Origin: Cymbomonas tetramitiformis
Lineage: Eukaryota; Chlorophyta; Pyramimonadophyceae; Pyramimonadales; Pyramimonadaceae
DNA length: 64,000 nucleotides
Assembly (NCBI GenBank): GCA_001247695.2
Contig: LGRX02026014.1
Location: 1-64,000 of the forward strand
Reading direction: 5' to 3'
The notes beneath the pieces were generated by a model, which saw nothing but the letters and a program-made list of their open reading frames with translations, did not search any database and was not told where the DNA came from. A program made the translations under genes and the position numbers. Positions 29,001-56,320 of the stretch are shown here, piece after piece (within the stretch, counting starts at the first letter, position 1; each line of letters opens with the position of its first letter).

Positions 29001-29074
29001 ATGACATCGTCACACCATCCACAGTCGAATGCTGCCAATGAGAGAAGCCATGCCTTCATTGAGGACATCCTCAG

Positions 29075-29155
29075 GTAAATTTCAGATTGTTGATTCATGA
29101 TTTGATTTCACCATCCTCTGGTTTACAAACTGATTAGTAGCATTTTCATTTTCAG
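29075..29155 (+). other. Apparent spliceosomal intron inside gypsy integrase (81 bp)
   Basis: Begins GTAAAT and ends TTTTCATTTTCAG, with stops in frame. Removing it joins CTCAG to GTGTTG in phase, restoring a continuous integrase reading (..EDILR then WEDKLPLVEFAINN). Confidence 0.7.
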
Positions 29156-36520: not shown

Positions 36521-37404
36521 AAACATACCTGTTTCTTGGCCAAAACGTATTTGAAGTCAAATGTATCTTCAGATCGAAAGCTGGTTTTTAGCAAGTCCTT
36601 CACGAAGTATTCCTTTCTATCTTTTTGCGACATGCTAAGAATATTTTCGCGAAAACCCTTAACATCTACCGATGAGAAAGATAGACAGCAGTGTGACTTG
36701 CAATTGCACCTAATGGTTTCTGCCATTGATATACTGTCAGCCTGCAAACGTCGCTGCTTGATACTAATTACGCCTTCATATTTCTTCTTGCGTATGTCGG
36801 ATTCGTACGGTTTGCGCACAACAATCTGCTTGTTTACTTCACCGTTCAAACACCGAAGAGTGTCTCCATCTAGCGCGTCTAAACTTGTCTCTGAAAATTC
36901 TGTATCAAGTCTGCTTTTTATCTCATTCAAGTCAATTTCGCGCAAAGCGCGTGTCCCGGAAACGCGTGAAGAATTGGAGCTAACTTCCGATCTAGACGTC
37001 AAAGGCGCGTTCCAAAGGACCATTTGCGTATTTGCGCTCGGGGCTATGCTTGGAATTGGCTCCTGATCAAAGAAGTCGGCCTCTAACTCCATAGAATCTT
37101 CAATAACGAATTTCGGGCACGGTTTGCAGATAATCTCGCAACCCTCGTCAAAAGGAATAGAAAACATATTTTCGTCAAAATTAGCCGTCATTAGCTTATG
37201 AAGCCGTTTATTACGTTCTGAAAATGATATGGACTTGCGAGTCAACAGAGGATTTCTATCTTTTTGGATCGATCGATTCTCGATTTCAGCGCAAATGACA
37301 CCAGGATATCTTCGAATCATATCCTTGATCTGAACATACCGAATCAGGAAGCGACAGCAAATGTCATTTCTGACAAAACTTGTCATCGATATTTGACATG
37401 TCAT
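36502..37404 (-). CDS. Unidentified protein with Cys-rich motif resembling transposon-associated N-termini
   Basis: 300-codon frame. The C-terminal part has CNCKSHCC followed by a spaced R..I..MSQKDRKEY..K.LL pattern and KYVLAKKQVC. I have seen this layout before integrase-like domains of some eukaryotic DNA transposons, but cannot name the family with confidence. The frame ends inside palindrome array 1. Either QVC is coding and the protein is truncated there, or GTATGT after AAACAG is a donor and the array lies in an intron. The start at 37404 faces the plus-strand gene across about 110 bp, suggesting a shared promoter region. Confidence 0.55.
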   Translation of the reverse strand: MTCQISMTSFVRNDICCRFLIRYVQIKDMIRRYPGVICAEIENRSIQKDRNPLLTRKSISFSERNKRLHKLMTANFDENMFSIPFDEGCEIICKPCPKFVIEDSMELEADFFDQEPIPSIAPSANTQMVLWNAPLTSRSEVSSNSSRVSGTRALREIDLNEIKSRLDTEFSETSLDALDGDTLRCLNGEVNKQIVVRKPYESDIRKKKYEGVISIKQRRLQADSISMAETIRCNCKSHCCLSFSSVDVKGFRENILSMSQKDRKEYFVKDLLKTSFRSEDTFDFKYVLAKKQVCLFELVH

Positions 37405-37515
37405 TTTTAGCCGACAGAAATTACTTACAATATTTTGCTAAAGTTACATCACTTTTTCAAAGTTCCTTCACACGCACCCCTTTCACAGTTGACAGCCAAT
37501 TTCTCTCATTTCAGT

Positions 37516-39463
37516 ATGGCGACAGCAGAAACATTTCAAGCACTGAGAGGGATTTATGTTTTCCAAGACTATCTCTGCAAGAAGTGGAGTATTGTTAGAA
37601 CAATTCAAACCGACAGTCCTGCAGACACCTTGCAGTTGATAATCCACTCAGATGACCCGCAAGTGGAGGCTGAAGAAATGATTTACAATTTTCCCAAAAA
37701 CACCCCTACGACTGTAAATACAGACGGTACCATTCAATCGGGGAAACGCGTAGCGTATAGTATAATTGAAGACCAGACTCCAATTTTGTATTTCGTCATT
37801 CATAGGAACAACAAGCTGACTATAATCGAACTGGACAGCGCAAACTTTGAGGAAGCCCTGAGCCTTCCGAAGCACACAAATCGGCTTGCGGCTTATCAAA
37901 GTTTCAAAAGGAGGGCAGAAGGAGAAGGAAAAAGCAAGGAATTCTTTCTAGCGAGCTATGTAAACGCGGCGTGGAAAGCGTCGATTACAGCTCCTTTCTG
38001 GCAAAACAAGAGGCCAGCGCCAGTGATTGATGACCTCGGCAGTAGTGGCGAAATACCTGTTTTACAGCCTTCGGTACGTCCCTTTCGCGCCTTGAGCCTG
38101 TACCGGGGCGGAAGGCGTTCATTAGCTAATGAACGCTTTCCGCCTCGAAACGCGCGCCTTGAGCCTGTACCGGGGATGAAAGCGTTCATTAGCTAATGAA
38201 CGCCTACCGCCTCGAAACGCGCGCCTTGAGCCTGTACCGGGGCGGAAGGCGTTCATTAGCTAATGAACGCTTTCCGCCTCGAAACGCGCGCCTTGAGCCT
38301 GGACCGGGGCGGAAGGCGTTCATTAGCTAATGAACGCTTTCCGCCTCGAAACGCGCGCCTTGAGCCTGTACCGGGGCGGAAGGCGTTCATTAGCTAATGC
38401 ACGCTTTCCGCCTCGAAACGCGCGCCTTGAGCCACCCTGTACCGGGGCGGAAGGCGTTCATTAGCCAATGAACAGTTTCGTCTTGTCCCAGGCTGCCAGG
38501 AGAACGGCAGTGGAGCTTGCTGCCAAACGCGCCCTTGAAGGACCTGGTGGCTCCAGAGTGTTTACTGGAGCGGGCGCTAATGTGGATATGTCTCAAGTGG
38601 CCACCCCATCTGAGGCAAGGAAGGCAGCCGAGGAGGCCGCACATGGATGGCACGCTAAGCTGAAAGTGGAGCATTCAACCAAGTTAGATTATGCGGAGAA
38701 AGCTGAGCTGTGCAAGAAAATCGAGATGGAGCACCGGTGGCCGAATCCGATGTCGACCGACGAGGCGGCGGAGCAAGGGAGTGTGTTCCGTCTCCCCATC
38801 AAGTGCCTGTACCACGCGAAGGGGTACAAGGCCTGCCGGGATCAAGAGAGGGGCTGGGTGAACGAGATCAAGTCCGGCAGGAAAGAGAACCCGTGGGCCC
38901 CTTTCAATGCGGGTCTCGTTGCGATCGACGATGTCAAAACCCGTGCCGAATTCTCCCTGAAAAAAGCACTGAAGGGAGAATGCAGAGGCAAGGTTTTTGG
39001 GCACCAGCACTGTTATCAAGCCACCGACGAGTGTAACGAGGAGGTCCCGTTGGAGGTAGCCTTCCAGTTCTTCGAGAACAAGATCTACATCGGTCTCACG
39101 CCTGACATGATTCGGTTCTTAGGCGAGACGCAGAACTCGATCGATCAGAAGCAGAAAGGGCGAGCCAACACCCGATTCATGCAAGGGCTCCGTTCGACCC
39201 TTTTCAAAAATCATGGGGTCGTGTACACCATCTACCGAGAAGCGTTGATCTCCGAGTTCGAAGCCAGCGTCCCCGAGGACGCCGAAGAGGGTGACCCTCA
39301 TCAACCTGGGCGGTACCAGGCCGGAGGGCTGGTGGAAAACATGGCGAGATACGAATCAGAGCATGGATTTGCAATCCCGGATCCCGTGAAATATCCCAAG
39401 GATTCCAGTACATCGAGGAGGCGACGGGGGAGCAGGAAGAGGAAGAGGAAGAGCAGGCGGTGA
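37516..39463 (+). CDS. Unidentified two-exon protein (about 509 aa), palindrome array inside its intron
   Basis: Exon 1 is 37516-38073 and exon 2 is 38492-39463. Donor TTCG|GTACGT and acceptor TCTTGTCCCAG|GCT are both phase 0, so the frames join cleanly. Exon 1 is moderately AT-rich. Exon 2 is GC-richer, has Cys residues (LPIKCLYHAKGYKAC, HQHCYQATDEC) and ends in a strongly basic tail (RRRRGSRKRKRKSRR), a likely nuclear signal. No domain recognised. The composition change leaves open two separate genes, the second starting at ATG 38468. The start is chosen at MATAETFQ; an upstream in-frame ATG at 37435 is possible. Confidence 0.55.
38100..38480. repeat. Palindrome array 2: six 67-bp units
   Basis: The same 20-bp palindrome as array 1, at 38116, 38183, 38250, 38317, 38384 and 38455, but in a different unit (CCTCGAAACGCGCGCCTTGAG...). 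The flanks GGCGGAA and TTCCGCC also pair, extending each hairpin. It lies between predicted donor 38074 and acceptor 38491. Confidence 0.95.
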
Positions 39464-39583: not shown

Positions 39584-40850
39584 GGGCGTGGTGTTGCCGA
39601 GACTGCCCGAATCTGTCGGTCGCGCATCCGCGCATGTCACCTCGGTCCCATAGAAGGTGGGTCAGTGCGCGAGGTGGTTCGTCTGCTCCCATAAGGCATG
39701 GTTGTAGCGAGCTCAATAAGGTTAGGTGCTCTTTGGGTAGGGATTCTTCAAGGGCTCAAGGTCTCAAGCAGCTCAAGTAGTCAAGTAGACTAGTGGCACT
39801 ATAGCAGTGTCACTTGCAACCCGACCGGCCTAGTGACCACTTCTCCTTTCGCCCACGTCATGGACCCTTCATTGATGAAGTGGGGCGCCCGAAGATCACA
39901 CGAGAAGGTAACTCCGGAAATTTTCCAAAACCGCCGTGTTTTTAATTCTGAAAAATCGGAATTAATTTCAGCCAATATTCGTCGAAATTGGGGAAATGTT
40001 GTGGGGGTCCATATAGGGGCCATTCAGGGGGGTTATCGATGCCATTCGACTGCTCACTATATAAGCCCAAATTTTCGATTTCAACTGTCACTTGGAAGCG
40101 ACTTCCCGATTTTGAAAAAAATCGCCATTCCGCCCCCTCAGCACAACCCCTTTAAAATGGGCATTTTTGCTTGCCGCGTGGTCAACGCGTCAGGAGTGAT
40201 TTTGCATGAATCGACCCCCACTTGTAAAATTTGACCTTGTAGTCGTCATTGGTATACTGTCTCCCGGCATATTCCGATTTCGTGGCAGCCGCATATAAAC
40301 AATATCCATGTGTGTAGGGGGCGCATTTTCGGAAAGCGTGCTTGGAATCGTCAAAAAGTGCCCCTTAATTTATGAGCAACACTAGTATGGGCTTCTTGAG
40401 AAAGTAGCGATATTGGTGGGCAAACTTGTATGTTGAGGTCATTTACGTTGTCTGAACGATGCCCATGAGAGTTGTGCACACTGCGATATGGCATATGTCT
40501 ACCTCACATAATGTAGATAGCCATATCTAGCGAGTTTTGTCCAACGGGGCAGGGTGTAACGATTGCGTTATTTTGGGTTATTATGATACATTGTGCAGGT
40601 GGTTCCAACTGTGTCTTCCACTCCGCTGCTGCCTTAAGTTTCGCGCTCCAACACCTCCCCCATCCACCACTCCACGACACAAGAAGCGATGGGAGTGGGT
40701 TCTGAGGTGAGAGGCCATGAAGAAGGCTGGCTAAGCGCCGAATATATTCGCCATCGCTCGACAATTCAAGGTGAAACGCGACTTTGTGACCAAGTGGGTG
40801 GACTGCTACCAAAGTACCGGAGGCGTTAGTGATGGTGCTGTATGTCGACT
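39584..40850 (+). repeat. 1267-bp direct repeat, copy 1
   Basis: About 99% identical to 41420-42686 (roughly ten differences seen), with 569 bp between. No TG...CA ends. Its right end encodes, on the plus strand near 40735-40835, a helix-turn-helix-like stretch (IARQFKVKRDFVTKWVDCYQ, then STGGVSD) typical of Tc1/IS630-type transposase N-termini. Confidence 0.9.
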
Positions 40851-41419
40851 TAGTGGGCTTGGCACCCAAAAACTGGGGACCGCAGGTTGTAAGCGAGCGC
40901 GTGAACTTGCACAAGGCAATAAGAATGACGAGTTAGACACCAAACGTGTGCAACGTGGTGAAAGGATCACAGCATACTGTAACTATCAAAAGTGCAAAAT
41001 ATGTCAATTTTAGCCTAGTGGTGTAGTAGTGTAGAAACCTTGCAGCGCCCGCTTAGCCAAAACGATCTCCAATGCGATTAAGCATTGTCATACTGTCAAA
41101 TAAGTATATCAACACAATTTTAATGCAATGTGACCATGGCTCGATTGAAAGAGTGCCCTTGTTCTTGCCGACGCACGCACAAAATGACCATAAACAGCAC
41201 GAAACTCTACCTTTACAGCCCTATATATAGGGCTATGGTCATCCAGTGACACAATGGTCATGAAAAACGAATTCCCCGACCTCAAAATACCTTTGTATCA
41301 ACCGACGTGGTCATTACATAACCCCATGCTATTCTGAAATGTCAGATTTCCGTCGAAACCCTACTCCGCAGACCATAAATCCCATAGTGTTGCTCATAAA
41401 TTAAGGGGCAACGAAAAGC
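40851..41419. other. 569-bp spacer between the 1267-bp repeats
   Basis: Its right end (about 41388-41411, AGTGTTGCTCATAAATTAAG) is the inverse of a segment inside the repeat near 40364-40387. In copy 1 the helix-turn-helix frame runs on into it (AGCKRARELAQGN) before a stop at 41013. Confidence 0.6.
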
Positions 41420-42686
41420 GGGCGTGGTGTTGCCGAGACTGCCCGAATCTGTCGGTCGCGCATCCGCGCATGTCACCTCGGTCCCATAGAAGGTGGGTCA
41501 GTGCGCGAGGTGGTTCGTCTGCTCACATAAGGCATGGTTGTAGCGAGCTCAATAAGGTTAGGTGCTCTTTGGGTAGGGATTCTTCAAGGGCTCAAGGTCT
41601 CAAGCAGCTCAAGTAGTCAAGTAGACTAGTGGCACTATAGCAGTGTCACTTGCAACCCGACCGGCCTAGTGACCACTTCTCCTTTCGCCCACGTCATGGA
41701 CCCTTCATTGATGAAGTGGGGCGCCCGAAGATCACACGAGAAGGTAACTCCGGAAATTTTCCAAAACCGCCGTGTTTTTAATTCTGAAAAATCGGAATTA
41801 ATTTCAGCCAATATTCGTCGAAATTGGGGAAATGTTGTGGGGGTCCATATAGGGGCCATTCAGGGGGGTTATCGATGCCATTCGACTGCTCACTATATAA
41901 GCCCAAATTTTCGATTTCAACTGTCACTTGGAAGCGACTTCCCGATTTTGAAAAAAATCGCCATTCCGCCCCCTCAGCACAACCCCTTTAAAATGGGCAT
42001 TTTTGCTTGCCGCGTGGTCAACGCGTCAGGAGTGATTTTGCATGAATCGACCCCCACTTGTAAAATTTGACCTTGTAGTCGTCATTGGTATACTGTCTCC
42101 CGGCATATTTCGATTTCGTGGCAGCCGCATATAAACAATATCCATGTGTGTAGGGGGCGCATTTTCGGAAAGCGTGCTTGGAATCGTCAAAAAGTGCCCC
42201 TTAATTTATGAGCAGCACTAGTATGGGCTTCTTGAGAAAGTAGCGATATTGGTGGGCAAACTTGTATGTTGAGGTCATTTATGTTGTTTGAATGATGCCC
42301 ATGAGAGTTGTGCACACTGCGATATGGCATATGTCTACCTCACATAATGTAGATAGCCATATCTAGCGAGTTTTGTCCAACGGGGCAGGGTGTAACGATT
42401 GCGTTATTTTGGGTTATTATGATACATTGTGCAGGTGGTTCCAACTGTGTCTTCCACTCCGCTGCTGCCTTAAGTTTCGCGCTCCAACACCTCCCACATC
42501 CACCACTCCACGACACAAGAAGCGATGGGAGTGGGTTCTGAGGTGAGAGGCCATGAAGAAGGCTGGCTAAGCGCCGAATATACCCGCCATCGCTCGACAA
42601 TTCAAGGTGAAACGCGATTTTGTGACCAAGTGGGTGGACTGCTACCAAAGTACCGGAGGCGTTAGTGATGGTGCTGTATGTCGACT
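41420..42686 (+). repeat. 1267-bp direct repeat, copy 2
   Basis: Second copy; right flank unrelated to that of copy 1. It ends 188 bp before the large MULE. Confidence 0.9.
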
Positions 42687-42874
42687 GGCAGCATGGACGC
42701 TTCGCGTACTTGCTCAGTGTATGCCAGCAGGTATTCTTCAGCAAAGCACGGAACGTAGTCAGCATTGTTGTTCTGAATCGTGCATGCTTGATAACCCTGC
42801 GACCGATGTCATCATATCTCGTCGTGACATCGTGAACGTTTCCACCATCTATATACGATATATATATATATATA

Positions 42875-42978
42875 GGGAAAATATTTAATTTAGATTATTT
42901 CTTTCTGATTTTAGATTAACTCATTTTCATGTTGATTTTAGATTAAGTTTTCTTGATGTCATCCGGCTATGACCGGTG
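42875..42978 (+). repeat. Left terminal inverted repeat of the MULE
   Basis: Begins GGGAAAATATTTAATTTAG. Three TTTAGATTA submotifs could be transposase-binding units. Confidence 0.92.
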
Positions 42979-43046
42979 GTCCTTTTCACGACTCGTGTTC
43001 AAATAATGTGCACACAGGTCAAACGCTCTCGTTCCCGCTTGCCATC

Positions 43047-43790
43047 ATGAGGAAGCCTCCAAAAAGCTTTAAGAAGGTTTGTCTCACTTGTGATAATGGT
43101 GGGCGCCGTTGTAATAGACACTCACGGCGTGTTCTGCTTGAAAATAAGCCCCCCCACTATCAACCCACCGCTTTCAAAGGCACTGTATTCAACGAGTATG
43201 TCGAAACTGGCTTCCGGCTAAAGTATACAGACACTGTGAACCTATGGGAGAGTGACGATAGTGACGGTAACCCTATATGGGACTTTCATAACCGCTATGT
43301 GTATCTCGAATACACGGAGGGTATGCCTTGGGGAGGGGTTATACCTTCACGTGGGAACTGGGGATATTCACCGTGCCAGCGACACTTGTTCTCTGGGTCG
43401 TTTCCCTTGTTTCACTACACTAACCATGTTGCAGGGTGGCAACTCCACGATATTATGCAACCTTTCTTATCGGTGTTATACAACCGGGCAAATAACATGT
43501 CATGCATGGCTCGATTCTTGTATTGGTTATCGCTATTAGCTACTAGGGAGCACCGTAGCGTCCACCATTGCTCAGCGGGCGCTATGCTTACAATTAGGCG
43601 AAGTGGAAACACTATTGGCAAACTATGTGCATGTTGTGCTTCAGAACTAACTGTGCACAATAGGGGGTACGTTTTAAGGCAGGATTGGTGTGCTTCAGAC
43701 GTTATTACGGGTGCGAGTCTATGCAAACACGTTATGGTTGACTCTACTAATCTCGCAGAGGCGTACTCACCTGCCACTGTTGTACATTAA
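43047..43790 (+). CDS. Unidentified Cys/His-rich cargo protein of the MULE
   Basis: 247-codon intact frame from an ATG 68 bp inside the terminal repeat (an upstream in-frame ATG lies in the repeat itself). The N-terminus has a possible zinc-binding cluster (CLTCDNGGRRCNRH). The C-terminal part has CACCASELTVH and CKH. The middle is aromatic-rich (YVYLEYTEGMPWGG, RGNWGYSPC). No known domain recognised. It converges tail to tail with the methyltransferase/oxygenase gene, the two frames overlapping by 4 bp. Confidence 0.6.
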   Translation: MRKPPKSFKKVCLTCDNGGRRCNRHSRRVLLENKPPHYQPTAFKGTVFNEYVETGFRLKYTDTVNLWESDDSDGNPIWDFHNRYVYLEYTEGMPWGGVIPSRGNWGYSPCQRHLFSGSFPLFHYTNHVAGWQLHDIMQPFLSVLYNRANNMSCMARFLYWLSLLATREHRSVHHCSAGAMLTIRRSGNTIGKLCACCASELTVHNRGYVLRQDWCASDVITGASLCKHVMVDSTNLAEAYSPATVVH

Positions 43791-45790
43791 ATATAATGTG
43801 GTGGCCAATACACCGGGGCTGGTTTGGTTAGACGCCTGTCATACATTTTGTATAAAGTAACGCAATAGCGCACTCCCTCAAAACCTGCAGATGCTACTCT
43901 ATGTTTGCACCGCGCATCGCACTTAAAAACCTTATGGCTTTCAGAGAATTGGAGAAGGGTGCCCTTGCTATCCTCTCTAGGCGACTCCATCTCCAAAACC
44001 GCGTTCTTGTAGTTTCCAAGAAAGATGATGTATTGATGTGACACATCTTTTCTGTCCTCGTGTCGCTTCACTTCGCACTTATCGGCTAGCATGCACGACA
44101 CATACAAGCACCAATCGCCGTCTCTATTGTAATTTGCGTCTATTATTTCTAAGATTTGACCTGCTAGGATGTAAAGTTCTTTCTTCCAATACGGCTTGCT
44201 TGCACTTGTTAGCGGATCGTCCATGTAAACACCTTTTTTCTTGTGCCAAGGGTGGGGCGTCCCGAAAGCACATGTTCCATCTAGCTTAGGGCCAAACTCC
44301 TCTTGCTGCACTGTTCTCCCCATGTTAAACCACCACCCAACATTCCAACCCTCCTTCCCTCCTTTCTTGCCTTTTGCCTCGTTTGCGCAGCCACGCTCTA
44401 TTATCTTGCACGTTTGCGCATGCAACGTTGCTTCAAATTCCGTGAGTAGTACCTTCAACCTTTGGTTATCACTTATTAGCACCGGCCGCCTGTTTCCGCG
44501 AATCCCACAAAATAAGTCCTCGATCCTTGAAAGATGCAACGTTGTGCTCTACGCCAGAATAAATAAAAGGTACGCTCCCAGCACTTTCTGGGTATCCTCT
44601 GTCTTCGTACAACAAGTTGTGAAACTCAGTGACACTTTTCTTTAGTAAATCTTTTGTTGTCGCTAAGTTGAAAAAAATATACCAGGCTTCAACTTCTCCT
44701 AAACTACGGTCGAACCCCGGATACTTTGCAGGCGGTAGCAAAATCTTTAAGCCAAGCCTTTGGAACGCACTAGCTCTACTATCCCCCACCACAGGACGTT
44801 CGAACGAATGCAATAGCTTCAAACACACGATCGTGGCGTTGGATTGAAGACACGCAGCTAACAAAGGTTCGCACTTCCCTCTTGCATATGGCAAGGACGA
44901 TATTATGATGTCTACTTGCGGGTTGAATTCTTCCCACTTGATTTTCTCTAAGTCTAGGCGTCTTATGCCTTTCGCAGGATGCTTAACGCTTAGAAAGATC
45001 GTCTTCGGTTTGAACCGAACTAGGTTGTTGTAAACGTAGCGAGGTCCCTTACCGCAGCAAAAATCGCCATTTTTTTTTCGTGAAACAAATTGCCAATAAC
45101 TGCTAATAGAGGCGTGTATTGTTGTGCGATTGTGGGATAAAAACTAGTGTCTTTATCACATACCCTTGGTATCGTTATTTTAAATGGTAAATTTTTCAGA
45201 GGAGCACACCTCGTTGAAAACGCACTCCGTTTTCGTTTCGGAAACAACTTGCTCGCGTTGTCGTCGTTTGCATTGTCGTTCGCATTGTCGTCCACAACGC
45301 GCTCCGTTGTTTCATACGGTTCAATCTCGTCGCATGTCGCAACCTCCGCGTTCACATTGTTTTGCCCTATGGGTTCAGTAGGTTGGCATATATCGGAGAG
45401 TGTTGGCGACTGTATTGAATAAAAGATTTCGTCTACCCATGCGTCGTAAGCTACAATTGTATTATGCCTATCACAGCATACTTCGAGCCCGCTGTCTGTA
45501 GGTCGGATTGAAGCTAACGCGGAAAAAAATAAAGCCAGTTGACCTTCTTTAATTGCTTGCTCACTTCCTAAGATATGTACGTAATATGATTTCAACAAAA
45601 TCAAAAGCTCTCCAACTTTATATTGCGAATACCCATTTCTTCCACCTGTGGACTCGAGTTGCGCAGGCCAGTAAATTGGGCGTATCTCTTCGAGCTTTGC
45701 ATACGGTCCCAATATCATTGCGACTACTCGCCGTAAATCTTGCTTGCTAGGTGCTTTCGGACAGCATACACCGCACTTATCACGAGGCAT
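43787..45790 (-). pseudogene. SAM-methyltransferase-like domain joined to TET/JBP-like 2OG-Fe(II) oxygenase (two frame breaks)
   Basis: Starts MPRDKCGVCCPK. After an N-terminal region of about 235 residues the frame breaks in a run of nine A (plus-strand T run 45070-45078). One base shifted, the reading continues as GDFCCGKGPRYVY, a SAM-binding motif I. Then comes DIIISSLPYARGK, matching the (D/N/S)xPY catalytic loop of amino-methyltransferases but with Leu replacing Pro. A second break near 44510 leads to a C-terminal domain with KRHEDRKD (HxD), a LGNY turn, KHRV (distal His) about 57 residues later and GVRYCVTLY (2OG-binding Arg). This is the order of TET/JBP-type oxygenases, which oxidise methylated bases. 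Known TET/JBP genes in fungi and algae are often carried by transposons. One polypeptide or two is unproven; the breaks may be sequencing errors. Confidence 0.65.
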
Positions 45791-45866
45791 CTTTTAGTTA
45801 GTCACAATCGGTCGTATATCGGCAACTTGTTTCTCAAAGTATTTCCCCCTTGCAACTTTCCGAGTC

Positions 45867-46273
45867 GCGCCAAAAACCGTTAGATTTTAATCGAACGGTA
45901 TCCCAGTTATTCACGGCCGTGAATTTTAGATTCACGGCCGTGAATCTTTCCGAATGGAACCAAAAACCGTTCGATTAAAATCTAACGGTTTTTGGTTCCA
46001 TTCGGACATATGGAATTCACGGCCATGAATCTGGAAGGGGTAAGGCGGGCGCATGCACCGTTTATCGCCGTCGTCCCGAACTCCCCGTCGCGTGACACAG
46101 CACCCGTGTGAAGGGCATGAGATGAAAACAGGTCGGTCATATATCCCTGTCATTCACGGCCGTGAATCTTTCCGAATGTAACCAAAAACCGTTCGATTAA
46201 AATCGAACGGTTTTTGGTTCCATTTGGATATATGGAATTCACGGCCGCGAATCTGGAATTCACGGCCGTGAAT
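45867..46273. repeat. Palindrome cluster in the divergent promoter region of the cargo genes
   Basis: ATTCACGGCCGTGAAT, a perfect 16-bp palindrome, occurs at 45909, 45930, 46152 and 46258, with near-copies at about 46015 and 46237. Two 56-bp hairpins, 45950-46005 and 46172-46227, have stems of 22 bp or more built on GGAACCAAAAACCGTT. A shorter relative lies at about 45867-45900. The cluster sits between the start of the methyltransferase/oxygenase gene (45790, minus) and the next gene (46351, plus), so it could hold operators or promoters for both. Confidence 0.9.
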
Positions 46274-46350
46274 ATGCAAGTTAGTGGCGCTTTTATTTCC
46301 TTTAGTGAAAGTTGAAATTTATTATAACCCGAACGTAAATCGTAACGACT

Positions 46351-47879
46351 ATGGAACAATCAACACTTGCCGAGATCTGCGAATGCGGACAGTTAAACAA
46401 GAAGGGAAAGCTCATTGAATGCAAGCAAGACCCGTCGACTATGGACCACGAGGGCAAACGCTGCACCCGGATAAAAAGAGGCAAGGGCGAGCTGCGATGC
46501 GCAAAATGCAGCGGACAGTCAAAGAAACCCGCAAGAGGCAAAGAAAAATATTTGGACGACTTCGATCGTACGCGAGCAATAGGCTTCGCAAACAACTTCG
46601 TGGTGTCTTTACCCGAAGACACGCGACAACATCTGGAAAGGCGCTCTTCGCTTATGTGGCGGGAAGCGTTGAACAAGGTGCCGGATTGGGACAAACTTCC
46701 TCGCGGAATGGTAACCCTTACCGGAGGAAAGCTAGAGGTGTTTCATGAAACCGCGAAACACGGGGGGGGGGAATATTGACGGACTTCTACGACAACTTCC
46801 TCGACGACGAAGATCGGAAGCACTTGAACGTCTTCGTCAACGAGGTGGAGACGCAGGTATTGGAAAACCTACGTAACTCGTACACCGTCGAGAACCAAGC
46901 GTTTTTAATCAACGACAACCTGGTTGCGGAGAAATCGGGGAAGGTCCTCTCGTCCCTAAGGGGGTGGCAACCTTGGCATCTTGACCAGCCGTTGAACCAG
47001 CCCCTCACCGAGCCCGCCCAGCACTTGGCGATCGTCGCCTACTTGGGCCCATGTTCCCCAACAAGGGTGTGCTCTGCGCCAACCCCGTCGTTGGAAGCGT
47101 CGATCAGGGAACATATCAAACATGTATGTCGTACGGCCAACACTCAAAATTTCCATCGGCCAAATTTCGGCCATCCCGGCCAAAATCCAAAATTGCCCGC
47201 CGCAGGCGTAAAATTTTAATTTTATGTATGGCAATATCATAAAAATCGCAAATTGTCGGGGGAATTTTCAAAATTTTACATAATTCGTTTCGGCCAACAA
47301 GCAAAAGCACACTCGGCCAAACCTCGGCCACAGCCCTCATCGTACGGCCACAGACCGGCCATAGGGGGTTGATATGTTCCCTGGCGTCGATTGACCTATT
47401 AGGCCAATCGACGCAAGAGAACTTGAGGCTTAACTGCGATATAGCTTTCCGTGAGCAGCGCGCTCTAATGCTCCCGAAGGAAACCCTCGACGCCTTCGCG
47501 GTGAACGTTGGGGGGAAGGAGAAAGTGGAGTTGGGCGAGTGCGCCGTTGTGGGGGGGGGTTCACCAAGGGGTGTCCAATGCGGATGGCACGCCCCGAATA
47601 GTGTTCTCCGCCAACTTGGCCTTGAAGGACGTGGCCTCATACGACCCGGATGTGCAGCTCAACCCAGTCAACTCGCCCATCCACTGGGGTTTTCTCGACT
47701 TCGCTGCCAAGGAGTTCGTCAAGTACTTCCTCGCGGGCACGGACCTCGCCCCCACGGTGGACGATGAAAACGTGAAAGTGCTCAATACTTTGGGGGCAGA
47801 CGTTATGAAGTGTTTGGACAAAGTCACGAACAAGCGAAGGCGTGAAGCGGAGGGTTCGCGGAAGCGTGGTAGGAGATAA
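46351..47879 (+). pseudogene. Cys-rich protein with possible second 2OG-Fe(II) oxygenase fold (several frame breaks)
   Basis: Starts MEQSTLAEICECGQ. The N-terminal 50 residues have CEC...C...C...CAKC, a likely zinc-binding module. The frame breaks in a G10 run (about 46762-46771). It continues with YDNFLDDEDRKHLNVFV and WQPWHLDQPLNQP, an HxD-like motif. About 250 bp of repeat-rich sequence (about 47110-47370) then interrupts it. Coding resumes with REQRALMLPKETLDAF, breaks again in a G9 run (47551-47559) and continues with VHQGVSNADGTPRIVF (possible distal His and Arg) to a basic end (NKRRREAEGSRKRGRR). HxD, then His, then Arg suggests a double-stranded beta-helix oxygenase, but this is motif-level inference. 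Divergent from the methyltransferase/oxygenase gene. Confidence 0.45.
47103..47385. repeat. Insert-like segment bounded by a 15-bp inverted repeat
   Basis: CAGGGAACATATCAA near 47106 and TTGATATGTTCCCTG near 47369 are exact reverse complements. Between them CGGCCA recurs many times. GTATGT near the left and CATAG near the right could also make it an intron. Confidence 0.55.
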
Positions 47880-48045
47880 GTAATAGATTACGCTACATTA
47901 CATTACGTGTATGCCATGCTTAGCCACGTGAAAAAAATATTTACACTTACAAGTTGATATATATTATTACTTGTTTTTGCAATCAAATAATATTTGTTTG
48001 TTGTACTTGCTCGTTATCGCTACTAGTCTTTGCTAATTTGCTATC

Positions 48046-48570
48046 CTATATTAGCTCGAACTCGACGTTCAAACGTTCAGAAATATTCAAACTTGCATTG
48101 CGCTCGTGCCTCTCGAGAGGCACCACCATCCTCTGACAAGTTTTAGTGCACTTGCTGCACAACTTGTACGACACAAGGGAGGTGAAGTTCTCTGTCGAGT
48201 TTCTTTTTCCATCGTCGTCGTTTCCATGGTCGTGGAAAACGATGCGAGTGGTTGCGCTCTCCTCGCACCACACCCACGCACCCTGCTTGCAGTTGTCGAT
48301 AGCGTAGTGGTCGAGCATTGGGAACTAATCGAAAGGAAACTCTAATGGCCAAACGCCAGCCTCCCCATACTCAACCATGCATATGAGGACCTTATGCAAC
48401 TCGCACCGCTTGTTGGGGCGAGTGAGTCCACAGTGGGGATCCTTGGTAGGGTTCTCGTCTTCCCTGCGCACCACGACGTGCTTCTGCCAAAGCGCTGGGC
48501 AATTGTATGGGGCGGGCAGGTAGCCTCTGGAAGATTGATAGTCCTCGTCCCTATTTATTACTCGGTTCAT
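48046..48570 (-). pseudogene. Small Cys-rich cargo reading frames, broken near 48320
   Basis: Two adjacent minus-strand frames appear to be one product. 48325-48570 begins MNRVINRDEDYQSS and 48046-48318 contains KLCSKCTKTCQRM, with the frame lost between them. Function unknown; a zinc-binding role is possible. Confidence 0.35.
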
Positions 48571-48822
48571 TCTTTTATTTGCGGGCTAAGACTAGGTTTA
48601 TGCTTAGTCAAATAGGTTGAGTGAAATACAATAGCGTCTTTAACTCTCCGAGTTAACGTATATGGTATAAGATCCTCTACGAGTTAACGTATATGGTATA
48701 AGATATCGTATAGCGTATACTATATAATAACATATCACGTTGTTCGCATACATACTCCCTTGTGTTCGCATCTTACTATCACTTATCGACCCAAGGAAAC
48801 TTTGTTCAAGTACGAAACAAGT

Positions 48823-49164
48823 ATGCCCCAACCATGTTGCGACCACTGCGAACGGAAAGCGTGGCTCCGCGGTAGCCCCTCATTTGTGTCGCACGGGGTA
48901 TTTTATTTGTCGTGTCGCAAAAGATTCGTTTATATTAACGACGCTTCGCAGCTTTTTCAGAAATATGCTGTTTTTCATTTCGTTTCCCTTAAAGGAGCGA
49001 AACAGGTTTCCTGGAAAAAAGTGACATCAACAGGCCACACCGCAGGAGCTGTCCCTCAAAATTATGCCGTTGGAAAATTTTCGAAAATTTTCTGCCCATG
49101 TCAGCAGTCCTACCCCGGATTGTGTCGAGCGCTCGCGCTTTACCGGCCAATCATGATACGATAG
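48823..49164 (+). CDS. Small Cys-rich reading frame, unidentified
   Basis: Starts MPQPCCDHCERKAWLR and holds GVFYLSCRK. A related CC..C....GYF/VFYLSCRK coding segment lies inverted at about 50955-51090, so this is half of an internal inverted duplication. The 3' end runs into a tandem repeat, and the terminal codons are probably not conserved. Confidence 0.35.
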   Translation: MPQPCCDHCERKAWLRGSPSFVSHGVFYLSCRKRFVYINDASQLFQKYAVFHFVSLKGAKQVSWKKVTSTGHTAGAVPQNYAVGKFSKIFCPCQQSYPGLCRALALYRPIMIR

Positions 49165-49600
49165 CATCTCAGCAGTCCTACCCCGGATTCTTTCGACCGA
49201 CAACGAGAGAAACGTTTAACAATTCAAAATTATACCACGAAGATATATATGCTGTTTTTCATCCATGTCAGCAGTCCTACCCCGGATTTTGTCGAGCGCT
49301 CGCGCTTTACCGGCCAATCATGATACGATAGCATCTCAGCAGTCCTACCCCGGATTCTTTCGACCGATCGTTCGTAACCGACAACGAGAGACACGGGTAA
49401 CAATTCCATATTTTACCCCGAAGATATGTGGAATTTACAATTATGAATTTGTCGCAAAACTGCTCGAACAGGTTTACCGATCTCAACATCATCATCAGCA
49501 TCAGCAGTCCTACCCCGGATTGTTTCGGCCGATCGCTAGTAACCGACAACGAGAGACACGGGTAACAATTCCATATTTTACCCCGAAGATATGCGGAATT
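49095..49600. repeat. Interleaved tandem repeat, five copies of a core
   Basis: CAGCAGTCCTACCCCGGATT recurs at about 49105, 49171, 49268, 49338 and 49503. Longer blocks (AACAATTCCATATTTTACCC) are shared between some units. Confidence 0.85.
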
Positions 49601-50803
49601 TACAATTATTTACGCATCTCGTCATTCAAGATCATCTCACCACTCCTATCGGCGGCGCGGCCCGGACAAAAGTGGATATGGTATGATCCTGGTCGGCAAC
49701 GTTTTCATTTTTCTCCAAGCTCTTATCTTGCGCCTACCTGCTCGCTGTCTCAGCGCGCGGCTTGTGTTTTTGTTTGATTAATGATTTTTGCGCGCTACTT
49801 TTCTTTAGCGATATTTCATATCGAGCATGTTTTCGTGTGCATGCGTGGAACCCGGCGGGGGGGCGTTCCTGCGATGTTCTTCCATGAGCCGCATCCCACC
49901 AGCAGCCCATCCTGCGATACATGGATGATTGGAGGCCGTCGGGCGTCTTTGCATCCTGCCTGACGGTTTGGGTTCAATTTTCAACAGGAATTCTTCCTTC
50001 CTGAGCAGCGCTCTGTTTTTTGCAGGTTTATGCTGTGCCTTTTCTGAAGGCGCCAGCAACGGCCATAGTGTATAATTCACGCTGTGCCTTTTCTGAAGCC
50101 GCCAGCAACGTTCCTGGCGGCATCTTTCCCTCTGGCCCTACTAAGCTCAAGGGGTGCTTGGAGACCGGCGGGATTCTCCGACGGGTTGGGTTCGATTCCC
50201 AACGTCTTTACTAACCAGCGTTTCGTTTTTTGCAGGTTTTGTTTTTTACGCCGAGCATCCTTTTATGCCGCCAGCAGAGTGCTCGCGGCATCTTGTGACT
50301 TCCAGCTCTGTTTAGGTTTCGCCGATTATTGATGTTCAGAATTTTAGATTTTCCACCCACTGTTCCGCTGCTGTTTTCAAAACGTCTATTTTGTACGTAG
50401 ACGCCCACCCGAGGATGAAATGCGGACAGCAGTTGGCTGTCGGTATTGGGTTCGATCCCCAACGTCCTGACTGATTCGCTGTTCGTGTGCTGCAGGAAAC
50501 GTTTTGGTTCTGAAGATTTTGGAACGTGCGTTGTGCTCTAGTTTCCTAGTTTAGATTTTCATATCGCCCTCGGGTAGTTGAATCCTTGTATTAGAAACTA
50601 GCAGCCTAGTAGTAATAAGTATTTATGCTAATATTTTTTAAGAGAGTAATCGGTTTTTCTCTTAGTATCTTTATCCATCTGAAATGCTTGCTTGCTTGCT
50701 ACTCATGTATGCCTCGTGCTATATGAATGTCCCCAAGTGATCGTGTAATACACCTGTGTTTTATGTAATATTCGCGGTACTACTCGTTCAGTAATTTTGT
50801 TTT
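49601..50803. other. Repeat-rich non-coding segment with B-box-like motifs
   Basis: GCTGTGCCTTTTCTGAAG(G/C)CGCCAGCAACG is duplicated near 50030 and 50082. GGGTTCGATTCCCAAC (50185-50200) and GGGTTCGATCCCCAAC (about 50447-50462) match the tRNA/SINE B box, each followed by a GCAGG. Probably SINE fragments inside the MULE. Confidence 0.4.
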
Positions 50804-51229
50804 TCAAGTCATAATCGCGGTACTATTCGTTTGTGTTCCCCCTAGCTTAATTTCATTTTCGGAAATTTTCTGTGAATTTTCACGACAGAAATGAGCGTGG
50901 TCCTCATGATTGTCGCACCTGCGACAGACATGAGCCCCCAGCTCATTTCTGTCGCACGGTATAATTCCAATCTGTCTTGCGACACGACAAATAAAATACC
51001 CGGTGCGACAAATTTGAAGTGCTACCTGGCTCCGCGCTCGGTTCAGCCGGGACTTGCAAGACCTGCAACAAGCTTTCGCCAACAATTTTGAAGGATACGC
51101 CGACCACGAGCGGTTCCTTGCAAGGTGGGCGGTAGTGGGTAGGGACCTAGCCGATATTCCCTTAGCACAACCTGACCGGCTCACTTGCAAAAGTTGCTTC
51201 ACCAACATTTGGCTACCACATGCTACCAC
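50804..51229 (-). pseudogene. Inverted, decayed relative of the 48.8-kb Cys-rich frame
   Basis: ACCRSCKSRLNRARSQ and the GGGTATTTTATTTGTCGTGT nucleotide core match 48.83-48.93 kb in reverse orientation. The homologous reading switches frame, so it is probably non-functional. Confidence 0.35.
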
Positions 51230-51548
51230 GGATATCTACTTCACCTCCTGGGCCAAGTGGGAATTTTTATAAAGTAAAGCAAAGTAAAGAGGTTACTAGA
51301 TTGATTCAAAAACAGACTTGAGAATAGTGTGTACACAAAATATCAATACTTGCTATTACACTTATGTACACCTGACAAAAATTGTCTATTCCTTAGCTAC
51401 GCATATTCCGCACAACCATGTTCCTGCTGGGATCTTGCTTAGGCTTGGACGCAAGCAAAAAATATGGAAGCCCTTATTGCACACGTCGCATAACAGCATT
51501 TCATCTCCGTTGTCTTAGACTTCACCGCACAGTTCGCACGACAAACTT

Positions 51549-54017
51549 TTAGGAACTTGCTGCGAGCATCTTGCTTCCATGTCTAGCTCTGCCATCTCGC
51601 GCGCTCGCTTGGATGCTTCCCGTTTCAGTTTCGCGGTGATCTTCCCAAGGGGTTGCCTTTTCAAGGCGCCAATCTCTCGGGCAATTTCTCGGGCGTCCCA
51701 CTTGTGGGTGTCGGCCAATTATGTCGAGATGTTTTTCAAGAGGCGCCTTAAACTTCCCTTTGAATAAGCCAACAGCAATACAGCATGCACACGTGACGCT
51801 CTCCGCGTAGATAGGGCACATACACCAGTGGTGCCCATATTCGGTGACCTTATTAGCGTCCAAAGGTCGTAAGATCACAAAAGACTTGTAGGTGTTCATG
51901 AACTGCTCGAAGGTGACAACCGTCGCTGGAGGGTGTTCAGGGTCGCGCATAAGGGCGAGGAACTTTACCACAAGGGGAGCAATCTCTTTCCTTTTATCCG
52001 CGATAGTGGAACCACTCAACTTCTCGAAGGTCTTAAGGGAGGGAACGACATATGAAGGACGGTCTGTAACCCCCAAGACGCCGGTCGTGCGCGTCATAAG
52101 CTCGAGCATGTTGTTGTCAATCATAAGTAGCGCCTCCCGCCAAATAGCTTGTGTAATAACTGGAGTCGTAGGTATGGGGTGTTGCCCGTCGTATATCGTC
52201 TCCTCGTGCATGTATTTTAGCGCAGAAGGATGGAATACCTCGAGTTGGAGTTGCTTACGCATGGTCATCTCGTCTTTCACGTGTCTATTCACGCACTCGG
52301 GACTATTCTGCGTAGATTGGATCCCTTCTGGCATGAAGCCGAGAACCCACCCACCCCACTTGCCCCACCAAGTCTCCGCGAACCAGTTATTGCAAATATA
52401 CTCTTCATCACGCTTGTATAGTTCGATGAAGAGATTGAATGCACTATCACGAGCACCAGCGATGGTGATGTTGTGTATTTCCGTAACGCCATGCTTGAAG
52501 CCGTTAACGTTATGAGCGTCGTTGAATAGCGCGGTCTTCTCGTTAAGCTTCATCATGCAATGCGACCAACATATTCCTTGCTTAATCTCTTCCGCGACAA
52601 GTGTACACCGTAGGTAACCTCAAATGCTCTAGAACGTGCGTGATGGTTTCCGCCGGAAGCTTGGCGTTAGCGTTGAAGAAAGCGAGGGAGTGATCCAAAG
52701 TATGATAACGAGGTTGCCACACTTTCTGGAAACCAAGTTGCATAGCCGCGATCAAGCAAAAGTCCACTATTTGCGAAGCATAGGCGTCCTCGTGCGATTT
52801 GATGGCGAGCGCCCCGAGACGAAAACGTTTATCCAAGTAGGAAGACCCGTTGCATTCAAGGGGTAAGCCTTGCCAGTTCGTCTTGTACGTGTCGTCTCGT
52901 GAGCGGTGATCCTTTGCGAGAAGTACCTCGAGTTTCCCCCAAGTGGTGTAAATCACGCACCACCTTTTGCGTTTCTGCGCTGCGACATAATCCTTGACGA
53001 GTTCGGTGTAGTTCTTGTAAAGGGCACGCAAGTTCAACTTCCCTTTATAAAACCTTTTCGAACGCGTACTCCACCCTTGGACGACAAGCATGTTCTCTAA
53101 GATATGCACGAAGTACTCAGCGGACTCGCAAGCAAGAATTGAGATGAAATGTGCTTGAAGGTTCCGTTCATAAACGGAAAAGTCTTCATTCCAACCCGCC
53201 AGCTTCCAAGTATTAAGCTCATCTTGGGTTGCTTGGGCTTCGAAAGGAATAGGAGGCAGGGTGTTCGCGGAATTCTCGGCGTAATGTTCCACGGTTTCGA
53301 AGCCGCTCGGTTGGAGTACTTGTCCTTCAAACATGCAAAGCGTCCCCGCCGTTTTGCGATCGGTCACGGGGATGGCCAACAAGTTGGAGGTCTGGCAAAC
53401 CTCCATGAACTGACCGCAAGTCTTTATGGTTTTAAGCCCCAAGATTTGTTTGCGATTGTTGTACACAAAGTTCTTTATGACCTTGTAATCAACGTCGTCA
53501 TCGGCTTCCATGGCTGTGGTGACTGCGGTACTAAGCTTCGCTTAAAAATGGCTTTAGGCGGAAGCTTTTCCTTGATCGCCTCCTTACACTTGTCCTTTAA
53601 ATCTTTCGACATACCCTTTCCTGTGAAATTAGTATGGTCGTGTGTCCCACGGGTGTACAAGTTGCATGTAATAGTAGGGCATAAGGTCGTTCCCTTGACA
53701 ATTTTATAGTAAACTTGACAACCGTGTGTATGCTGTAAAGCACACCTGAAGTTTTGAGTCACGGAACCGTTTTTTCCCGACCTATAATCCTTGCCAGACT
53801 TGGTCACACCCTCGAGGCTCAAGGTTTCCATCTTCTCTGTGCACTCTACATACGATACACCATTGAGGACCGTACTCCATACTAAGGGGACACGGGTACG
53901 TTTCGACTTTCCCATTGGTGTAACGAGGAAGTCCTCTTCTTCCTCTTCATCCGAATGATATATATCCTCCACATTTTTACCCGGGCTTGTGAACTCAAAG
54001 CCGTCGGGCTCAGCCAT
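51549..54017 (-). pseudogene. MULE transposase with WRKY/GCM-type N-terminal finger and SWIM-like finger (two frame breaks)
   Basis: Three consecutive minus-strand frames make one product. 53475-54017 starts MAEPDGFEF and has a C-C-H-H finger (FRCALQHTHGCQ ... THDHTN) of the FLYWCH/WRKY-GCM kind. 52582-53511 holds the first catalytic region (DDTYKTNWQGLPL), SHEDAYAS, and TLDHSLAFFNA, where the second Asp is expected. 51549-52556 holds NSPECVNRHVKDE (third acidic residue) and WCMCPIY...TCACC, a SWIM-like CxC...CxC with Cys in place of His. Breaks lie near 53490 and 52610. It binds the terminal repeats and cuts by a DDE mechanism. The start lies 68 bp inside the right terminal repeat. Confidence 0.85.
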
Positions 54018-54084
54018 GTTACTTTCCTCTCGTTTGGCTACGCGACAACTCTTTTGTGTAATATTTCGATGTCATGGATGCATG

Positions 54085-54188
54085 CACCGGTAATAGCCGG
54101 ATGACATCAAAAAAACTTAATCTAAAATCAACATGAAAATGGGTTAATCTAAAATCATAAAGAAATAATCTAAATTAAATAGCCTACC
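54085..54188 (-). repeat. Right terminal inverted repeat of the MULE
   Basis: Reverse complement of 42875-42978 with few mismatches, followed by ATATATATA and a long TA tract. Confidence 0.92.
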
Positions 54189-54195
54189 ATATATA

Positions 54196-54229
<34 letters not shown>

Positions 54230-54235
54230 GTGTAG

Positions 54236-54302
54236 CACGAAAGCTCTTTTAGCACGGGTGCTCCTTTAGCACGGATGCTCCTTTAGCACAGATGCTCAAA
54301 GC
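54236..54302. repeat. ~17-bp tandem repeat, about four units
   Basis: TTTAGCACGGATGCTCC-type units beside the MULE insertion site. Confidence 0.8.
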
Positions 54303-54895
54303 TATGCCAGACAGGGATGATGCGATTACATATAAATAAATGTTGAGTGTATATATGTCCTGGTGTAGACTAGAAAGAAGTGAGCAAGTCTAGGAGCAAG
54401 CTATGCCAAGTTTTCAAGGTAGCAGGAAGCAGATTGATGGCAACAGCTGATTGCTAGAAGACTTAATAAGCTTGCAGAGCCCGGTTACGTCGTCATCCAT
54501 TGCTAGAAGGCTTGCAGAGCCCTTTGCACCAGAACCAAAAATCCCGCCTGCATGCAGAGAGCACTATTAAGAGCACCAGCATATGCCATTGCACACGCCA
54601 CTGATGCGAACTTTGACCGCCAATTCCACTACTTATTCCATAGCACATGAAAAAGTTCTCGATGTGCGTGTGTATGCGCTCATGCTTGCCCTTCACGAAA
54701 AACTGCACAAGGGCAGGCCCGCAGCGAGTGAGCCTACCATCCCACTGGCGCAAGAGCCGCCCAGAGAACTTACACTTTTGTGGGGAGGTGCTGGCTGCTA
54801 AACAGCTGGAAGTATCCGGCGCCGGCTACGTAGGAAGAGTTTCGGGCGTGGGCATGCACATACGGGGACAGGTGGGGTTGCTTGAGTATGCACCT
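54303..54895. other. Probable intron or 3' flank of the CER1-like gene
   Basis: No exon matching the expected next CER1 block was recognised here. A minus-strand frame at 54493-54753 is unassigned. TTGCTAGAAG(A/G)CTT is duplicated near 54449 and 54500. Confidence 0.35.
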
Positions 54896-56320
54896 GAACG
54901 CCCCATGCCGGGATTACGTGCACGTGCAGCTTGAACTCTCCGAGGCGACGCTTCATCGCAACGAAGGGCTTGCCGAAAACACGGAGCACCAAGAAAATGG
55001 CCACAGCGACCGGGTACAACGGGTATAGCCACCACGTTGGGTTAAAAGGCTTGGACGAAAGCGACCTGCACAGGCAACCCCTCGGATCACACTTTTTCCT
55101 TGGGAGCAGTCAGAGGATCTTACTTCTCCCACCCTTCAACTCCACGAGCGTCGACGAAATGCAAAACTATTGGATAGCGACTCCTGTGCAGCTGCCTCAG
55201 AGTGCAAAAGAGAGATACTAAAACCTCAGTTCAATCGAGTGAGTACACCTGCACGAGAGGAACACTGCCCTCGACGAGCTATCTTGCACACCGATCTGGA
55301 CTGGTGCCCGAAAGTGCCACTCAGTGCAGTGCACCGCATGTAAAGTAAGCCCGGGCCAGAACATACCGTCCCATGAAGGCAGGTGGAACACGGAGAGCAG
55401 CTCCGTCCCGTGCGCAAGGAAAGCCTGCGAGCCAAGCCGTGATGCGATAATAGTAAACGATCAGCTATTTTCCCACTCGCAGAGTAGGACAGGAGGTACG
55501 AGTTTTAGAAACTGTACACTCGTGGCGATCACGGATGAGATGAGAACGAACCAACAAACACAGAGCAAGTCAGGTGCTCGGGACCTCTTCGACACTGCGG
55601 GTGACCTGTGACATACAGCAGTAGAGCCGTGACAGATCTGCAGGAGCAGGCGTCACGGTAGGATGTCTGCCATAGTCTACACGTGTCGCTTCAGCTACAT
55701 ACGCTGGAAGGGAGCTAAGGCGAGTTGCGATAGATTGTGGAAACGGGAAAACTCATGCGACGCACCACATCGGCGACTTCGTCGTCTTGCATACGACCGC
55801 CAGTCCAAGTAGACTTATGAAGATCGTCCGACCCTATGTCGGCTGTCCGGTAAAGGTAATCACAAATGGGCATGACAATGCAGAAGTTGATGTGCACGTG
55901 CGAGTGGTGGAGCGAGTGAAATGACGATGTGTATATCAGATACTCCAGTGGCGGCACGGCTTCATACAGTCTATGCCATGTGAGGGGATAAACGTTAGTG
56001 GTTATCACAAAATAGCACAGCAACACGCATTTTCCTGGCTCAAAAAAGCGCACAGCAACACGCGCTTTCCTCGCGCCTGCAGAATAGGGAAACATGAAAA
56101 TGTCTACAACTGGCGGGCGTGCGTGAAGGCAGGCACTGACCAGTGCGGGATGACTTCAAAGTTGCAGTGTCCCAATGCATTGAGGAAGTCAAAGCCCAAG
56201 ATGTAAGCGTATACGCTGAACCAGCTGCTGGTGCCCGTGTACCACGTTCCTAGGAGTGGGATTGCGAAGTTGGCCGTATATCCAATATGCTCCAAGAATG
56301 GGTGGCATGAACCTGCCAAA
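54896..56320 (-). CDS. CER1-like fatty-acid hydroxylase superfamily gene, partial multi-exon
   Basis: Three exons are recognisable, reading right to left. About 56320-56145: HPFLEHIGYTAN ... LNALGHCNFEVIPHW, entered after acceptor TTTTGGCAG. About 55972-55755: PPLEYLIYTSSFHSLHH, the family His box, then MPICDYLYRT, ending before donor GTGCGT. About 55069-54896: SSKPFNPTWWLYPLYPV ... FGKPFV ... LGEFKLHVHVIPAWGVQ, entered after GCCTGTGCAG. The order matches plant CER1/CER3 proteins, membrane enzymes of very-long-chain aldehyde and alkane formation with di-iron His clusters. The exon between 55069 and 55755, the N-terminus, and the C-terminal domain were not located, so gene limits are minimal. 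Exact donor after IPHW is uncertain. The MULE sits just beyond its 3' side. Confidence 0.75.

Follow-up and report, generated by a model that had tools for sequence, protein, structure and literature searches.

Does the 11.3-kb stretch enclosed by inverted repeats in contig LGRX02026014.1 of the green alga Cymbomonas tetramitiformis form a single transposon in which a methyltransferase-like and an oxygenase-like gene travel as selected cargo, and what could such a cargo do? We analyzed a window comprising positions 1 to 64,000 of the forward strand of this contig (64,000 nucleotides, NCBI GenBank assembly GCA_001247695.2). A sequence-only reading of the window had proposed a Mutator-like element (MULE) with terminal inverted repeats of about 104 bp, a 9-bp target duplication, a MULE transposase, and a gene combining a methyltransferase motif with a TET/JBP-like oxygenase. 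The window element is a damaged member of a multi-gene MULE family that is present in many copies in C. tetramitiformis and was recently active. It is almost certain that this MULE carries a cargo maintained by selection.

Ends and copies of the element

Alignment of the two ends of the element verified the terminal inverted repeats. Their core of 97 nt (42882–42978 and 54085–54181) is 96% complementary (E-value 1.8e-39) and constitutes the longest inverted pair within positions 42000–55000. Inclusion of the less conserved repeat tips places the limits of the element at 42875 and 54188. The 9-bp target duplication ATATATATA is present, but in the window it carries no weight on its own because both flanks are AT microsatellite. 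The duplication is proven by other copies, since perfect 9-bp duplications in ordinary sequence border the element in all nine contigs of family 1 in which both ends were read. These nine contigs represent eight distinct sites, because C22887 and C23766 share one; two of the eight sites belong to a 2.1-kb non-autonomous kind.

The 851.7-Mb C. tetramitiformis assembly was searched for related elements. All 40 places scored among 1508 candidates, the window included, matched the leftmost 326 bp of the element with at least 96% identity. Five of the ten copies that were read at length contain both cargo genes: C25555 (8793 bp), C25227 (8552 bp), and C23766 (8787 bp) are complete, C19272 leaves its contig near the right end, and C17974 has lost the start of the transposase. 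A deletion in C25627 cuts into the oxygenase and open reading frame (ORF) 4, and C15948 and C2942 match the window element at the left only, the former still containing a piece of the oxygenase. C1507 and C11193 (L009 and L019) belong to the 2.1-kb non-autonomous kind, which shares the ends and likewise has 9-bp duplications. Their 1.44-kb interiors are 98% alike and match neither the window nor C25555, which rules out that all copies lacking the cargo are deletion derivatives.

When the further copies probed for cargo are added (9 of 10 and 6 of 7), 20 of 27 copies have the cargo where its offset predicts, a count that excludes the window, the duplicate contig C12437, and 11 scored places without a cargo probe. 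The right end was present in 5 of the 12 right-end probes returned. Positions 5533–8858 of C12437 (L002) are 99.97% identical to window positions 41375–44700, including the flank outside the element, and C12437 is thus a contig that duplicates, or is allelic to, this very insertion. The sequence-only reading had named as evidence against it same-ended copies without cargo, combined with cargo genes bounded by insertion scars of their own. Same-ended copies of this sort exist, as 7 of the 27 lack the cargo at its predicted offset, but the transposase and the two cargo modules are found between these ends again at different sites. In the complete large copies, the ends, transposase, and cargo have moved together. 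No insertion scar was seen around the cargo in the complete copies, for which no systematic search was made.

The frames of the transposase, methyltransferase (440 codons), and oxygenase (253 codons from stop to stop) are all open in C25555 and C25227. One-base differences affect ORF1 in C25555 and the methyltransferase in C23766. Relative to C25555, the cargo contains no substitutions in C25227, C23766, and C17974, and few in C19272. The amplification burst is recent.

The window copy contains two nested insertions, and both insertion sites are empty in all six other copies read there (C25555, C25227, C23766, C19272, C17974, and C25627). Therefore, the window copy is an inflated, decaying member of its family. 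It is very improbable that its frameshifts are mere assembly artifacts in an intact element. The published assembly is a hybrid of Nanopore and Illumina data (PMC10675990), so single-base frameshifts in homopolymers may be errors; one lesion falls within a homopolymer of 9 bases, where a 1-nt gap is seen again in three of five copies compared. However, further indels of 2, 5, 7, and 18 nt, an in-frame stop, and the two clean nested insertions with their duplications resemble real decay.

Transposase and class of the element

MULE transposases are characterized by a DDE triad, a CxxH motif between the second Asp and the Glu, and a SWIM motif. We assigned these motifs by eye in relatives of the window proteins, which are named C. 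tetramitiformis proteins. The acidic residues are spaced as DD(66)-(131–137)E, with CxxH between the second Asp and the Glu, in all five transposase relatives. SWIM-type cysteines are present in three of the five, and the models of the other two end before that region; P0011 carries the source label SWIM-type protein. Because of this DDE/CxxH/SWIM architecture and the 9-bp duplications, the element is a MULE. Both subfamilies of the element, the second of which is described below, have long terminal inverted repeats (97 bp, 96%; 71 bp, 92–94%) and target duplications within the 8–11 bp (usually 9 bp) typical of MULEs.

The transposase predicted from the window is thus real, though it is broken there into several frames with an in-frame stop. 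In C25555 it spans 893 codons from the first Met and ends in a PHD finger. The PHD finger was recognized by profile: PF00628 matched above its cut-off in the window piece, P0012, P0013, C25555 (E 5.9e-13), and C18801 (E 5.9e-11). Of the profile searches suggested by the sequence-only reading, those with Tet_JBP, MULE, and SWIM gave no match and those for the methyltransferase no credible match; for the Pfam MULE and SWIM profiles, this holds for the window frames, the read-through, and the five relatives. A PHD finger in the transposase is also a feature of Rehavkus elements, and in the algal transposase it is a possible histone reader.

A second subfamily with the same gene set

The named proteins P0003, P0008, and P0009 are 52–59% identical to the window oxygenase. 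A genome search with P0003 yielded 105 scored places from 1265 candidates, and the oxygenase frame of C13101 reads, by eye, as P0003 from RKRLPISD onward. Both ends were read at two loci of this second subfamily: C18801, with a length of about 9.97 kb, and C20682, with about 9.9 kb. In both, the element has inverted repeats of 71 bp (92–94% within a copy) and a 9-bp duplication, with a one-base slide ambiguity. A P0014-type transposase is present in C18801 (98%) and C20682 (96%). In C18801 the SWIM motif, the PHD finger, and both cargo genes were read, and for C20682 the transposase and oxygenase are known. A 400-bp transposase probe placed at a fixed distance from the cargo matched fully at 9 and partially at 1 of 19 further loci. 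The gene model of P0008 joins the N-terminus of a P0014-type transposase to the oxygenase. Between the subfamilies, the transposases are 47%, the methyltransferases 50%, and the oxygenases 59% identical. The association of transposase and cargo is old, because the subfamilies that share it are only 47–59% identical.

Selection on the cargo

The ratio of non-synonymous to synonymous substitution rates (dN/dS) of the oxygenase is 0.13 between the window and C25555 (15.5 of 145 synonymous sites versus 8.5 of 554 other sites, p 9e-7). All comparisons of these two copies include the neutral decay of the window copy. In the second subfamily, six pairs were formed from four oxygenase copies. The divergent copy L067 takes part in three pairs, which are not mutually independent and have dN/dS of 0.12–0.14 (p 5e-13 to 8e-11); the three close pairs have dN/dS of 0, 0.10, and 0.18 (p 0.0007 to 0.03). 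The oxygenase is under purifying selection. The window and C25555 also give dN/dS of 0.46 for the transposase, 0.33 for ORF4, and 0.21 for ORF5.

The cargo enzymes

The methyltransferase-like and oxygenase-like modules announced from the window are both real, but they occupy two overlapping frames rather than one continuous frame. Motif I, D[FV]CCG[KQ].P, and motif IV, SSLPYAR, are present in all seven methyltransferase sequences. We take the SLPY of motif IV to resemble the NLPY of KsgA and Erm. Among the best 50 of 610 Foldseek rows, 48 name a methyltransferase, although the model is of low confidence and none of the rows reaches 0.001. On the basis of the motif and these top rows, the enzyme appears to resemble adenine-N6 rather than C5 methyltransferases. 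The window gene contains a frameshift at a 9-base homopolymer (45070–45078) and a change of the motif-II Asp to Val.

The iron triad HxD...H and the 2-oxoglutarate (2OG)-binding Arg are present in all six complete oxygenases, but are common to other 2OG families too. The residue comparison with TET enzymes counts from the iron Asp and the 2OG-binding Arg and looks for Asp or Asn at D+3 and an aromatic residue at R+6. The oxygenases, which represent about three distinct lineages, have Asp at D+3 (seven of seven) and Tyr at R+6 (six of six). They thus retain two of the three alignable base-contact positions of TET enzymes, since residues at D+3 and R+6 contact 5-methylcytosine in CMD1, TET2, and NgTET1 (PMC7854593). 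The TET/JBP-like assignment therefore has good support at the level of residues, whereas Pfam Tet_JBP does not match the oxygenase at E up to 10. A PF12851 profile search of the alga's own genome returned no match, and its controls were equally silent. Foldseek and VIA comparisons of the oxygenase model stayed at noise level, with no Foldseek match reaching 0.001, except that 2OG enzymes head the VIA list. A sequence search of the PDB found no credible relative of the cargo. Scans of viral contigs (proteins and end pattern) and of genome contigs returned no relatives and thus gave no sign that the cargo came recently from a virus or bacterium. The oxygenase points to a TET-like branch missed by profile libraries, and we consider it probable that the enzyme acts on nucleic-acid bases.

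The oxygenase frame of either subfamily overlaps the 3′ end of the methyltransferase, and no AUG precedes the conserved part of the oxygenase, which eliminates an independent AUG start. In P0006, the Met probably reflects a GTG start codon that a gene caller translated as M. A predicted intron that begins at a G|GTA donor following ..VEA-W and ends at a CAG|G acceptor would place the two enzymes in one frame. The spacing is 193 nt in the window and C25555, and 183–184 nt at four loci of the second subfamily, where the removal would likewise restore one frame. The predicted junction is exactly that of the named gene model P0003, and P0009 combines this acceptor with a different donor. Conservation of the donor is weak evidence alone, because its GT follows from conserved Trp-Tyr codons. 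We infer alternative splicing of a methyltransferase–oxygenase gene from these sequences; a programmed +1 frameshift or re-initiation is possible instead. A single fused frame of 671 residues at some loci of the second subfamily was also considered and rejected, as the frames are overlapping or frameshifted at the four loci read.

Proposed function and rival explanations

A function of the cargo can be proposed. Splicing of the conserved intron would link the TET/JBP-like 2OG-Fe(II) oxygenase to a methyltransferase core of Rossmann type and probably of the adenine-N6 class, and the unspliced message would give the methyltransferase alone. The targets of both activities may be DNA bases within the element or near it. 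The oxygenase could remove or convert host silencing methylation, the methyltransferase could place an element-specific mark, or both, and the PHD finger of the transposase would read the histone state at source or target sites. Taken as a whole, selected MULE cargo, a spliced methyltransferase–oxygenase acting on DNA bases, and a histone-reading transposase form the best explanation, toward which we lean. The chances that the net effect of the cargo is anti-silencing are even. We put forward only tentatively that one gene yields, by regulated splicing, a stand-alone base methyltransferase and a methyltransferase–oxygenase fusion that are coupled with the histone-reading transposase. If so, the element would carry a self-contained epigenetic kit and would mark or unmark its own copies, possibly via N6-methyladenine or an unknown hypermodified base.

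Several observations weigh against this explanation. A non-autonomous kind with the same ends has other contents, and 9 of the 19 further cargo loci of the second subfamily gave no transposase match at the fixed offset; these loci could represent insertions, deletions, or separated cargo. The dN/dS of ORF1 is about 1.3 and that of the methyltransferase only 0.45 (window versus C25555), and selection is unmeasurable within the 8.8-kb group because its cargo is nearly invariant. Motif IV of the methyltransferase is SSLPY, whereas the usual motif is NPPY or DPPY. The structure models of the two enzymes are poor (predicted local distance difference test scores of 45 and 43), and Pfam, NCBIfam, PHROGs, and PADLOC contain no credible profile match for either enzyme. 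The splicing is a prediction. The base-reading residue at R+8 is His in TET2 and NgTET1 and Arg in CMD1, whereas the complete oxygenases seen have Met (GVRYCVTxYKM).

The cargo could alternatively be a neutral passenger, consisting of host gene fragments captured as in Pack-MULEs and amplified between good ends. MULEs tend to acquire host fragments (PMC6446971), and in this genome elements with these ends propagate without the cargo as well. Captured fragments would be free of constraint, whereas the oxygenase has dN/dS of about 0.13 in two subfamilies, with p down to 5e-13; the cargo frames are open over their full length, and the same gene set and overlap are shared by subfamilies whose proteins are 47–59% identical. 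We regard a neutral passenger as extremely unlikely. One gene that pairs a methyltransferase with a TET-like oxygenase by way of a shared predicted in-frame splice joint, and that adjoins a palindrome array, would also fit self-labeling, in which the two enzymes successively build a hypermodified base on the DNA of the element, as in phages, and the base is recognized by the transposase or by PHD-bound chromatin. Pfam recognizes no glycosyltransferase or other enzyme in ORF1, ORF4, ORF5, or ORF6, and motif IV points to adenine N6, while the substrate of TET-type enzymes is a C5 methyl group; such labeling appears doubtful. It is less likely still that the pair acts on RNA, with an rRNA-type adenine-N6 methyltransferase and an ALKBH5-like demethylase editing transcripts such as the transposase mRNA or small RNAs.

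Relation to known transposons

Transposons with TET/JBP genes or with DNA methyltransferases are already known. TET/JBP genes are carried by fungal DNA transposons of the KDZ, hAT, Harbinger, IS3EU, EnSpm, ESTA, Plavaka, and Helitron groups (Kojima 2025, PMC12730594), and section 4.2 of that paper states that their function is not experimentally validated. Like those elements, the algal transposon has an open, multi-copy gene for a TET-like 2OG oxygenase beside the transposase. It differs in being a MULE, a class outside the list in the abstract of that paper, and in its green algal host, its methyltransferase partner, and the missing Tet_JBP match. Sola1-1 of the alga Ectocarpus carries ParB and an N4/N6 DNA methyltransferase, and similar proteins are reported from transposons of green and red algae (PMC12477816). 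Like the element described here, it is a DNA transposon of an alga and has an accessory gene for a predicted base methyltransferase, but it belongs to another superfamily, has ParB instead of an oxygenase as the partner, and contains a recognizable DNA methyltransferase domain.

Among MULEs, the Rehavkus elements of Arthropoda and Annelida are described with a PHD finger, a minisatellite, and one ORF (PMC6446971). The algal element shares the 9-bp duplications and long inverted repeats of Rehavkus and other MULEs with extra domains, and the PHD finger of the Rehavkus transposase, but has SWIM plus PHD and six further ORFs. Arabidopsis VANDAL MULEs carry VANC, a sequence-specific anti-silencing protein (PMC10398659, PMC12730594); the algal element would similarly be a MULE with a gene acting on its own epigenetic silencing, which is inferred for the alga. 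Retrotransposons of dinoflagellates and charophytes also combine a mobile element with a methyltransferase, but their enzymes are C5-methyltransferases of the DNMT type (PMC5890265). Neither a TET-like oxygenase nor the enzyme pair turned up in any MULE in our searches, which covered open-licence literature and not subscription papers or Repbase reports. The element would add the MULE superfamily and a methyltransferase–oxygenase pair to the transposons that carry base-editing enzymes. Escape of transposons from silencing by borrowed base-editing enzymes has so far been argued mainly from sequence. In the phago-mixotrophic C. tetramitiformis, cargo-bearing and cargo-less copies with the same ends share one genome, so that their marks are directly comparable.

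Other features of the window

The features of the element are listed in Table 1. The palindrome array provides candidate regulatory or protein-binding sites, and C25227 aligns with a shorter version of it. The 2.16-kb nested element has GGTAGC tips, which resemble the tips of the large elements, and its interior contains repeats of the CAGCAGTCCTACCCCGGATT type.

Table 1 Features of the MULE copy in the window
Feature	Position	Strand	Description
Whole MULE copy	42875..54188	.	11.3 kb; complete copies elsewhere 8.55–8.79 kb
Left target duplication	42866..42874	.	9 bp, ATATATATA
Left terminal inverted repeat	42875..42978	+	97-bp core 42882–42978
ORF1, small Cys-rich protein	43047..43790	+	Start codon read from sequence; no Pfam match
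Oxygenase reading frame	43787..44548	-	HED...H...R; 2OG-Fe(II), TET/JBP-like; no AUG before conserved part
Methyltransferase-like gene	44469..45790	-	Motif I DFCCGKGP, motif IV SSLPY
Predicted intron	44490..44682	-	193 nt; removal would fuse methyltransferase core (..VEAW) in frame to oxygenase
Palindrome array	45848..46279	.	ATTCACGGCCGTGAAT; CGTTCGATTAAAATCGAACG type; between divergent cargo and ORF4
ORF4	46351..47879	+	413 residues in C25555; here interrupted by small transposon and frameshifts; no Pfam match
Nested small inverted-repeat element	47105..47383		CAGGGAACATATCA..; 279 bp; 8-bp duplication GCGTCGAT; inside ORF4
ORF5, small His/Cys-rich protein	48046..48570	-	No Pfam match
ORF6	48823..51272	+	About 94 residues; split here by nested element; no Pfam match
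Nested MULE-type non-autonomous insertion	48871..51026		2156 bp; 9-bp duplication TGGCTCCGC
MULE transposase	51386..54017	-	N-terminal Cys/His region, DDE, SWIM, PHD; disrupted in window copy
C-terminal PHD finger of transposase	51386..51540	-	In-frame stop here; PF00628 E 3e-12, X at stop
Right terminal inverted repeat	54085..54188	-	97-bp core 54085–54181
Right target duplication	54189..54197	.	9 bp, ATATATATA

Just left of the element, positions 41420–42686 and 39584–40850 form a 1267-bp direct duplication with 99.2% identity. An open frame of 332 codons at 38465–39463 has no Pfam match. Tandem arrays at 35976–36516 and 38086–38473, with units of 71 and 67 bp and the common palindrome CGTTCATTAGCTAATGAACG, flank two ORFs (36502–38196). 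A long terminal repeat retrotransposon at 24652–29765 encodes gag, protease, reverse transcriptase, and RNase H, and its long terminal repeats may be the two similar stretches that lie near 17.9 and 31.3 kb (17.5–18.1 and 31.0–31.5 kb).

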